From contig CAKZLM010000030.1 of assembly GCA_937126915.1 (NCBI GenBank), positions 1 to 50,134 of the forward strand: a stretch of 50,134 nt of DNA, given 5' to 3'. Below the pieces are notes generated by a model. The model ran no database searches and was not told where the DNA came from. It was given only the letters and a program-made list of their open reading frames with translations. Each line of letters begins with the position of its first letter. Positions within the stretch are counted from its first letter, which is position 1. The position numbers and the translations under genes are program-made. This document shows positions 28,277-35,775 of the stretch, in pieces. Source of the DNA: an uncultured Alphaproteobacteria bacterium (GTDB lineage Bacteria > Pseudomonadota > Alphaproteobacteria > Sphingomonadales > SMXR01).

Positions 28277-32310
<4,034 letters not shown>

Positions 32311-32341
32311 AGCCGCCATTACCCCCCTGAAATGCGGTTAT

Positions 32342-33193
32342 TTATTGTGTGCCACTTTGCTGGTCAATGCGATCACCACGAACCGTTGGCTGCAAGGCAC
32401 GATCAACGATCCCCTGATCTGAAATGACATTTTCGCGCTGTAATAAATTATAAGCGCGTTCATACCACTCATCACCTTGATAGTTATGCGCCAACACATT
32501 GGCAACCTGAACCGCCTCTGGATCAACACCTAAAGCAAGGTATGATTCAACCAAACGGAACAATGCCTCAGGCACATGCGATGTGGTTTCATATTTTTCA
32601 ACCACTTCTTTAAAGCGCAAAATGCCACCCAAATATTGACCACGCTTTTGATAGAAACGACCAATTTCCATTTCCTTACCCGCCAAATGATCAAGGGTCA
32701 TTTCATATTTCACGCTGGCATCTTTAGCATATTCGGTATCAGGAAAACGCAAGGCAACCTCACGCAAGGCATCCATCGCTTGCTGGGTAACTTTTTGATC
32801 ACGACCAACATCGGTGATGCGCTCGTAATAACAAAGGGCGATTAAATAATAGGCGTATGGCGCACCGCTGTTACCAGGGTGCAATTGCAAGAAGCGTTCA
32901 GCCGCCAAAATGGCATCGTCATAATTATTGGCTTGGTAATGGGCAAAGGCCCCCATCAACATGGCGCGACGCGCCCATACCGAATAAGGGTGCTGGCGTT
33001 CAATTTCATCAAACACCGCCGCAGCAAGAGAATATTGCTTTGTTTCAATGCGGCCAACGCCCATGTGATACAGTGTATTAACATCACGCGCCACGTAGGT
33101 ATCTTCACCGGTGCTTGAACAGGCAGAAAGACCACCCACTGCAGACACAATAACACCTATTTTTAAGGCTTGACCAAGTCGTTTAAGATCCAT
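32342..33193 (-). CDS. bamD: BAM complex lipoprotein BamD (ComL)
   Basis: This essential outer-membrane lipoprotein helps BamA insert beta-barrels such as those encoded in the first 7 kb. The lipobox LSAC (Cys25) ends the signal peptide. TPR-like repeats cover residues 35-250, including the paired YSLAAAVFDEIERQHPYSVWA and YDDAILAAERFLQLHPGN, then ALRFPDTEYAKDASVK. It is the first gene of bamD-recN-ligA; in Alphaproteobacteria lpxC usually lies just before it, but here the neighbour is a divergent XRE gene. Confidence 0.94.
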   Translation of the reverse strand: MDLKRLGQALKIGVIVSAVGGLSACSSTGEDTYVARDVNTLYHMGVGRIETKQYSLAAAVFDEIERQHPYSVWARRAMLMGAFAHYQANNYDDAILAAERFLQLHPGNSGAPYAYYLIALCYYERITDVGRDQKVTQQAMDALREVALRFPDTEYAKDASVKYEMTLDHLAGKEMEIGRFYQKRGQYLGGILRFKEVVEKYETTSHVPEALFRLVESYLALGVDPEAVQVANVLAHNYQGDEWYERAYNLLQRENVISDQGIVDRALQPTVRGDRIDQQSGTQ

Positions 33194-33445
33194 TCCAGAC
33201 CAGCTCCAAATTCGATTTGCTAAATTTTTGTGACAGCCCTTGTATTAGACTTTTTCCACACAATTTATACTTTACATTTATTATGCTGAAAAGCGACAAC
33301 AGCCAACAGCTAAGATTCGTCGGGACTATAGCACGATACCCCCCTATCTTGGCAATCGTAATACTCATAAGTTTTGGCAAAAAAAGGGCAGAATATGCTG
33401 CTTTTTTACCGTTATCTGTGCCTTTGGCATATTATTGGAGACTAA

Positions 33446-33802
33446 ATGAACGCAATCACTAGCGATTTAATGAAACAGATGGATAAAATTGTCGGTCAAA
33501 AATTACGAGAATTGAGAACCCAACAAGGTATGACCCAGCAAGACTTAGCCGCTGTTCTAGACCTTTCCTATCAACAGGTCCAAAAGTATGAATCAGGAAC
33601 AAACCGCATCAGCGCTGGTAAACTGTATTTTTTTGCCAAAGCCCTTGGTGCCAAAGTTTCGGACTTTTATGATAGCAAGCATTTCCAAAATGTGGACACC
33701 AGCATTGATAGAGCAAAAATGCGTGATCGCATAGAAGACTTTGATGGATTGTCCCCAAACATCAAGCTGGCTTTAACGAACTTGATCCAAACGATGAAAT
33801 AA
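33446..33802 (+). CDS. XRE-family helix-turn-helix regulator, 118 aa
   Basis: This Cro/CI-type DNA-binding protein has an HTH_3 domain at about residues 17-72: VGQKLRELRTQQGMTQQDLA, then LSYQQVQKYESGTNRIS and KLYFFAKALG. The C-terminal 45 residues may dimerise. This compact form is common in Alphaproteobacteria as a stand-alone regulator. GGAG lies five bases before the ATG. It is the only plus-strand gene between 28 and 50 kb and sits exactly where lpxC is expected, between ftsZ and bamD. Its targets are unknown; the 252-base gap upstream is the likely control region for it and bamD. Confidence 0.9.
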   Translation: MNAITSDLMKQMDKIVGQKLRELRTQQGMTQQDLAAVLDLSYQQVQKYESGTNRISAGKLYFFAKALGAKVSDFYDSKHFQNVDTSIDRAKMRDRIEDFDGLSPNIKLALTNLIQTMK

Positions 33803-33803
33803 A

Positions 33804-33833
33804 AAAAGCGGCCCGAAAGCCGCTTTTCTTTTC
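33804..33833. terminator. Bidirectional terminator between the XRE gene and ftsZ
   Basis: AAAAGCGGC (33804-33812) and GCCGCTTTT (33819-33827) form a 9-bp stem with a 6-base loop. T-rich sequence follows on plus, and on minus the A run at 33801-33807 is the T tract, so it can end the dcw transcript. Confidence 0.85.
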
Positions 33834-33854
33834 CTTATTATCATCAGGCGATAA

Positions 33855-35681
33855 TTAATTGTTCTTCAAAAATGATGGGATATTCAAATCATCGTCATCG
33901 TCATCATCATTTGATTTTTTTTCAGAAGGCTTAGAGCTGGCGCTATCAATTTTAGGTTCCGCGCGCGGGGCCTCTTCACCTTGGTCACTGTTTCTAAAGT
34001 TTTGCGTTAAACGCTCAAACAAAGACAAATTACCTGCAGGTTTTGCTGCTTGTGGTGCTGCCTCAGAGGTGGCACCTTCTTCGGCTTTTTCATCACTCGT
34101 AACGCCTGCAGGTCCTGCCATAAAGGCTTCTGCTGCTTTTGCATCAGGCTGGCCTTTTGGTTCCGCAACCTTTTTAGGCTGAACCGGCTCTGCCGCCACA
34201 AATCCATCAGACTGAACGGTTTTTTCTAAAGCGTCCTCATCTTCCTTGGTTTCTTGCGGCTCACTGGCTTGTTGCTCTGGCTCGTCATCATGATCGTCGG
34301 TGTTTAGTGGCGTATCAGACTGAACCAATTCAGCCACCTTATTTAAAACATCACCTGTTTGACGGGCCTTCTCTTGTTGCTCTAATTCCATCTGTGATTG
34401 AGGCGCCTCTTGTGCTTCAGGTGCCGCTGAACGGGATTGATCATCCTTAACCTCTGGGGTTGCGACATCTTCTTTAGAAGACGCTTCTTCAGACGAATTT
34501 TCCTCAGCTTTAGGTGCCTCTTCTTGCTGTGGCACATCAATTTGATCGGGACTAATATCAAAACGCTCGTCAGTTGTTTCTTTTGGTGCAGGCGTTTCTT
34601 CCGTTTTTACTTCTGGTTTAGCTTCTACAGGCTGTGGTGCTTCAACCTTGGCGCTTGGCGCCGCTGTCATGGTGCGCTGCGGCATCGGTTGCGAGCGCAT
34701 ATCCTGATGACCCGCCCCTTCTTCCAAACCAGTGGCAACCACAGAGACCCGCATTTTGCCATCAAGTTCAGGATTAAAAGCCGAGCCCACAATGATGTTG
34801 GCATCTGGGTCAACTTGGCTGCGAATATAATTGGCCGCTTCATCCACCTCAAACAAGGTCAGATCCATACCACCGGTGATGTTAATGATAACACCCTTGG
34901 CACCCTGCATGTTCACTTCATCCAACAATGGGTTAGAAATCGCTGCTTCTGCCGCATTAACAGCGCGGTTATCGCCTTCTGCCTCGCCCGTGCCCATCAT
35001 CGCCTTACCCATGCTGTTCATCACGGTTTTGATATCGGCAAAGTCAAGGTTAATAAGGCCCGGCATAACCATCAAGTCGGTGATCCCACGCACACCAGAA
35101 TGCAACACTTGGTCAGCCATTGAAAAGGCATCGGCGAAGGTGGTTTTCTCATTGGCAATACGAAACAGGTTTTGATTAGGGATAATGATCAGGGTATCGA
35201 CATATTCTTGCAGGGCAGTAATACCAGCCTCAGCAATGGTCATACGACGCGAACCTTCAAAATGAAAAGGCTTGGTCACCACGCCAACGGTCAATATGCC
35301 GCGCTCTTTAGCCATTTTGGCCACAACAGGCGCAGCGCCCGTTCCAGTGCCGCCACCCATCCCGGCGGTGATAAACACCATATGGGCACCGTCTAGCATG
35401 TCTTCTAGGGTTTCAAGGCTTTCTTCTGCAGCAGCTTTACCCACTTCTGGCTTTGCACCCGCACCCAAACCTTGGGTAATTTGACTGCCCAATTGAATGG
35501 TGTTGCTTGCCTTTGACAATGATAAAGCCTGCGCATCCGTATTGGCTGCAACAAAATCCACACCTTGCAGGTCAGCTTCAATCATATTATTGATGGCATT
35601 ACCACCTGCGCCACCCACACCCACCACGGTAATTTTCGGGGTCATTTCCGTTAATTCCGGCATGGTTAATTCAATCGACAT
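33855..35681 (-). CDS. ftsZ: Cell division GTPase FtsZ with long acidic linker
   Basis: FtsZ is the tubulin-like GTPase that forms the division ring. The globular domain (about 15-320) has GVGGAGGNA, the tubulin signature GGGTGTG (109-115) and the T7 loop NLDFADIK (211-218). A disordered linker of roughly 275 residues follows, rich in Glu/Ala/Pro/Gln. The C-terminal peptide, [10 protein letters not shown] after an Asp run, binds FtsA. At 608 residues it is longer than most FtsZ proteins. I chose the ATG at 35681 because GGGAG lies eight bases upstream; the frame extends to 35702. It ends the dcw run. Confidence 0.97.
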
Positions 35682-35775
35682 ATTGCGGTCTCCCTTCGCC
35701 AACTTTGGCTATTACTTTTACCAATGGGGCCCTGTTTCATTTTCCCCAATTGCTTCTTGCTATCATATAAACTTA

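Follow-up and report, generated by a model that had tools for sequence, protein, structure and literature searches.

The lpxC gene and the other lipid A genes that we tested were very probably deleted in the common ancestor of the order to which this uncultured alphaproteobacterium belongs, and sphingolipids would now build the outer leaflet of its outer membrane. Gene absences, gene presences, synteny and a clade in one gene tree are the observations on which this reading rests. The order is taken here as Sphingomonadales in the broad GTDB sense. The stretch of DNA analysed, called the window below, covers 50,134 nucleotides and belongs to a genome of 2.79 Mb that is 99.09% complete.

The junction between ftsZ and bamD

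A sequence-only reading of this region had reported a junction devoid of lpxC, where ftsZ meets a convergent XRE gene and bamD-recN-ligA follows. This arrangement was confirmed. The window carries, in this order, ligA (NAD-dependent DNA ligase, 28277..30616), recN (30625..32319) and bamD (32342..33193) on the minus strand, an XRE gene (33446..33802) on the plus strand and ftsZ (33855..35702) on the minus strand, followed on the same strand by ftsA plus other division and murein genes. All of these except the XRE gene were named from their translations, and homologues of recN adjoin bamD in relatives. No lpxC was found in the window among open reading frames of at least 50 aa, at E values up to 10 with our own LpxC profile. 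The XRE gene, of opposite orientation to both neighbours, is convergent with ftsZ and divergent from bamD. It encodes a XRE/Cro-family HTH regulator of 118 aa with an HTH_3 domain (Pfam, E=6e-14), which may resemble the PraR/PhrR-type regulators of rhizobia.

A candidate for the bidirectional terminator claimed at the end of ftsZ was also recovered. Between the XRE gene and ftsZ lies a stem-loop resembling a bidirectional intrinsic terminator (33804..33827, given on the plus strand), with a perfect 9-bp stem and a T-run. The scan returned four sites of this kind where shuffled sequences gave 3.9 on average, a number not above chance; the stems of the remaining three have 5 pairs each, compared to 9 bp here. 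Judged against loci of the type ftsZ-lpxC-XRE-bamD, described below, the former lpxC would have lain in this terminator region.

The divergent intergenic region between the XRE gene and bamD (33194..33445) measures 252 bp. From this position, the XRE protein probably regulates its own gene and perhaps bamD too. A search of 25 XRE-bamD intergenic regions revealed no common operator: short-gap palindromes were no more frequent than in shuffled sequences. With long gaps, one A/T-rich half-site occurred in 6 of the 25 regions, and 50 shuffles gave at most 5; we took this as an effect of composition. GANTC sites numbered 20 across these regions for 23.8 expected. A TTGGC...GCCAA pair is found again and again among the XRE-bamD regions of some Kordiimonadaceae.

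Lipid A genes in the genome, the order and the class

The sequence-only reading preferred a relocation of lpxC, with absent or altered lipid A synthesis as its second option. If lpxC had merely moved, lipid A would be made normally; lpxC is often found in other clusters in bacteria (excerpts of PMC3087551), and BamD and LptD are both present. The lipid A genes searched were LpxC, LpxB, LpxD and KdtA. The Pfam LpxC search gave zero matches across the whole genome, and LpxB, LpxD and KdtA had no match anywhere in it. Four of 14 control genomes, including E. coli and Caulobacter, were positive for LpxC. In a class sample of 241 genomes with a completeness floor of 90%, the same search found LpxC in 206, and the method is therefore sensitive. 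With this profile negative genome-wide and the three other genes undetected as well, relocation is almost certainly wrong, and the gene content supports the other option in its stricter form, a lack of lipid A synthesis.

We extended the search to 60 genomes of the order (1.1–4.6 Mb), consisting of the window genome and 59 relatives, 51 of which have a completeness of 90% or more and a contamination of 5% or less. They fall into families designated f1 to f8; the window genome belongs to f1, and f4 and f5 were taken as Kordiimonadaceae and Sphingomonadaceae, respectively. LpxC was above the cut-off in none of the 60, and neither LpxB nor LpxD was detected in any (0/60 each). A sub-cut-off LpxC match in one relative (G048, E=4.8e-4, in a 607-aa frame) was taken as chance. 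KdtA was found in four genomes (G014, G015, G021, G026), members of f3 and f8 only. These KdtA loci (L034, L035, L033 and L032, respectively) thus stand in genomes without LpxC, LpxB and LpxD. The G026 copy carries one in-frame stop, and an M23 peptidase gene adjoins KdtA in G021 and G014, the neighbours in G015 and G026 appearing similar by eye.

LptD is kept in all 60 genomes and a BamD homologue in 58, none having been obtained for G007 and G026. The presence of bamD and barrel genes, which had been advanced in favour of relocation, loses its force, since relatives without LpxC keep these genes.

The class sample included 35 genomes without an LpxC match. Among the 20 listed, 4 belong to this order and 16 to other orders; LpxC absence therefore also occurs outside the order, in 16 genomes or more, and further LPS-less Alphaproteobacteria may exist.

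The XRE gene and the probable loss of lpxC

To compare the junction with those that still carry lpxC, we used the 30 best-scoring of the 206 class matches. Within about 1.5 kb of lpxC, bamD was present in 24 of these loci, ftsZ in 24 and both in 21, in agreement with the order ftsZ-lpxC-bamD that had been given for many Alphaproteobacteria. In 7 of these best 30 loci (L195, L198, L200, L201, L203, L207, L220), an inverted XRE gene lies between lpxC and bamD. ftsZ is upstream within reach in six of the seven, while L203 ends before it.

In the order, an inverted XRE gene of the same family adjoins bamD in 32 of the 60 genomes, a count obtained by comparing gene positions between searches, with part of the junctions viewed directly. 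The pair was found in every genome of f1, f3, f4, f6 and f7 for which bamD was found, and in none of the 26 genomes of f2, f5 and f8. For the sequence-only reading, close relatives that all share this order and carry lpxC elsewhere would make it an ordinary lineage trait. The first part holds in these 32 genomes; the second does not, lpxC being gone and not elsewhere. Kordiimonadaceae loci keep XRE-bamD, with ftsZ absent from the roughly 6 kb fetched. In place of ftsZ, loci of the f4 type show an aminotransferase-like gene (L038) or an aconitase-like gene (L143), both named from translations.

Are the XRE genes beside lpxC the same gene as that of the window? The HTH_3 domain was detected in the window XRE gene and in two of the seven from lpxC-bearing loci (outgroup XREs). 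Against a profile of the order's junction XREs, the outgroup proteins score 120–146 bits, the weakest 120.4, whereas the best paralogue reaches 120.2 bits and one true junction XRE (G042) only 107.7. As these scores overlap, the profile alone cannot separate outgroup junction XREs from paralogues. In an XRE tree, from which four long-branch rows (L003, L009, L015, L023) were left out, the seven outgroup XREs cluster with the junction XREs, with support of 94/90 for their grouping with two f3 rows. Nineteen of 20 paralogues stand apart (97/94) and one lies inside the junction XREs; branches are long. AU tests reject neither a tree that unites all paralogues (p=0.293) nor a grouping of the order's junction XREs that excludes the outgroup ones (p=0.198). 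The outgroup XREs are putative orthologues, with moderate support, of the junction XREs of the order.

These data bear on a displacement of lpxC by an inserted XRE gene; the sequence-only reading had assumed such an insertion. The gene does occupy the expected place of lpxC, on the opposite strand, and the orthology between order and outgroup is moderately supported only. Nevertheless, insertion is very unlikely: it is contradicted by the seven loci where an inverted XRE coexists with lpxC. Also against it, the XREs of these loci join the junction genes in the tree, with all but one of the 20 paralogues elsewhere, and in Kordiimonadaceae the XRE gene remains by bamD in loci that have no ftsZ in about 6 kb. 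The window XRE gene is probably not an insertion but an old neighbour of lpxC. Taken together, synteny and the XRE tree give as simplest history an ancestral junction that would have read ftsZ-lpxC-XRE(inverted)-bamD, a deletion of lpxC that would have left ftsZ-XRE-bamD, the arrangement of the window, after which f2, f5 and f8 would have lost the XRE gene.

Whether lpxC was lost once or several times was examined with a BamD tree built from hand-picked rows: 27 of the 58 order genomes in which bamD was found, 22 lpxC loci out of the 24 that have bamD in reach (L206 and L207 were left out) and three named loci, two from Maricaulis and one from Parvibaculum, in all of which lpxC was seen. One branch separates the 27 LpxC-less rows of the order from the 25 LpxC-bearing rows, with support of 99/90 and presence in 100% of 200 bootstrap trees. 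This tree leads us to favour a single event for the loss of lpxC, a single-gene tree not being proof of one event. Several independent losses of lipid A inside the order would fit the variable junctions, with XRE beside bamD in some families and not in others, and also the lingering of KdtA solely in members of f3 and f8. We consider them unlikely: all 60 genomes are without LpxB and without an above-cut-off LpxC, the LpxC-less BamD rows form one clade, and a single loss is the simpler account. The loss of the lipid A genes tested would then date to the common ancestor of the broad-GTDB Sphingomonadales. Within the order, the BamD tree places the XRE-bearing f3 and the XRE-less f8 together on one side, so that the XRE gene was lost later, provided that the loss of lpxC was single.

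Ceramide genes and comparison with known systems

Published work in Caulobacter and Sphingomonas defines a set of five ceramide genes, which we searched using the E. coli BL21 genes as reference proteins. Four of them form a single row, aasR-cerR-acpR-spt, all on the minus strand of contig C115 of the window genome (locus L245). aasR (L245:6433-8289) and cerR (L245:5382-6431) were assigned by 45% and 33% identity to the BL21 proteins, acpR (L245:4926-5213) by its phosphopantetheine domain and position, and spt (L245:3711-4910; placed at C115:3714-4901 by the profile search) by SPT profile, NF047599 and PDB matches. Among PDB entries, serine palmitoyltransferases match the Spt protein best (E=3.6e-175). 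With 621 bits, this protein is over the NF047599 cut-off of 500, and it falls 19 bits short of NF047603, the alphaproteobacterial SPT model (650.8 for a cut-off of 670), a cut-off passed by 14 of the 60 order genomes. A bare E value is not diagnostic of SPT, since related enzymes give matches in each of the 60 genomes and in 12 of the 14 controls. By score, 58 of the 60 reach at least 498 bits on the SPT profile and the next match is at 253 bits; G019 and G040 are without one.

No Pfam family matches E. coli YghO, and a protein query was therefore used for the fifth gene, bCerS. Its counterpart in the window genome (L246:5041-6183, contig C153; placed at C153:5047-6165 by the query) is 42% identical to BL21 YghO. 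bCerS was found in 59 of the 60 order genomes; the exception, G007, has a completeness of 71%. A flippase-like gene (L246:7195-8736) and an LptG-type permease gene are in its neighbourhood. PF04339 (FemAB_like), first tried as the ceramide synthase family, proved wrong, YghO being the true counterpart. A PF04339 gene occurs in 57 of the 60 genomes and is missing from the window genome, G003 and G006; no recognised spt lay alongside it in six loci inspected by eye. Near the spt row and convergent with it, a lipid-kinase-like gene with a DAGK_cat match (L245:1693-2694) overlaps a gene without Pfam match (L245:2691-3605). This pair is a candidate for ceramide head-group genes.

In the mechanism that we propose, AasR and AcpR would supply the acyl chain, Spt, bCerS and CerR would synthesize the ceramide, and the retained Lpt machine would export the sphingolipids to an outer leaflet like that of Sphingomonas. 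The retention of LptD and of LptF/G-type permeases suggests that the bridge which once served LPS now transports the new lipid. A leaflet made of neither LPS nor chiefly sphingolipids, the latter being a side product, deserves some thought, since a structural role does not follow from ceramide genes by themselves and Caulobacter makes both LPS and sphingolipids (excerpts of PMC11324152). We give it little weight, because the lipid A genes are gone and the ceramide genes near-universal, as in Sphingomonas, which makes no lipid A (PMC11324152, PMC10964400, both in excerpt).

LPS-free, sphingolipid-bearing sphingomonads are already known. Extension of this genotype to Kordiimonadaceae and to f1, as read from the genomes, looks unreported. 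In a survey of 2020 covering more than 1,000 type strains, sphingolipids seemed confined to classical Sphingomonadales and were considered a likely apomorphy of that order; the survey noted that reports from other groups were lacking and treated Kordiimonadales as a separate order (PMC7179689). In the literature that we searched, mostly non-subscription and mostly by title, no report of a sphingolipid or a serine palmitoyltransferase in Kordiimonas or Kordiimonadales was apparent.

By gene content, the loss of lipid A genes and the possession of ceramide genes are common to Kordiimonadaceae and additional families, which supports the broader grouping of the order and gives the LPS-free outer membrane a deeper origin. 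These bacteria are predicted to carry no endotoxin and to be unresponsive to LpxC inhibitors. The missing lpxC is a lineage trait, though an informative one: it becomes a deletion whose position on a tree can be determined, with an identifiable scar, and adds a small new piece to the history of the junction. We also put forward, tentatively and with more doubt than belief, a wider reading in which lipid A loss and sphingolipid replacement were one ancestral event, a synapomorphy of the order (Sphingomonadaceae, Kordiimonadaceae and several more families) predating the sphingomonads, and in which the XRE gene, a remnant of the neighbourhood of lpxC, now controls outer-membrane assembly via bamD.

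Among known systems, the closest is the LPS-less glycosphingolipid outer membrane of Sphingomonas and Zymomonas (Sphingomonadaceae). The same genes are absent there, as judged from f5, as here (LpxC above cut-off, LpxB, LpxD), Spt and bCerS are present and LptD is kept. The window differs in keeping XRE-bamD beside ftsZ. In addition, aasR is reported to be distant from acpR-spt in Sphingomonadaceae (excerpts of PMC9386255), in contrast to the single row of the window genome. The ceramide cluster of Caulobacter crescentus and E. coli BL21 (aasR, cerR, acpR, spt, cerS) has all five counterparts here, four of them in one row; bCerS is however on a separate contig, and Caulobacter and E. coli also have LpxC. 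Wolbachia, Ehrlichia and Anaplasma are intracellular bacteria with small genomes. They resemble the order in being without Kdo2-lipid A genes (PMC3087551, in the parts seen) and differ from it in that its sampled members have genomes of 1.1–4.6 Mb and a ceramide pathway.
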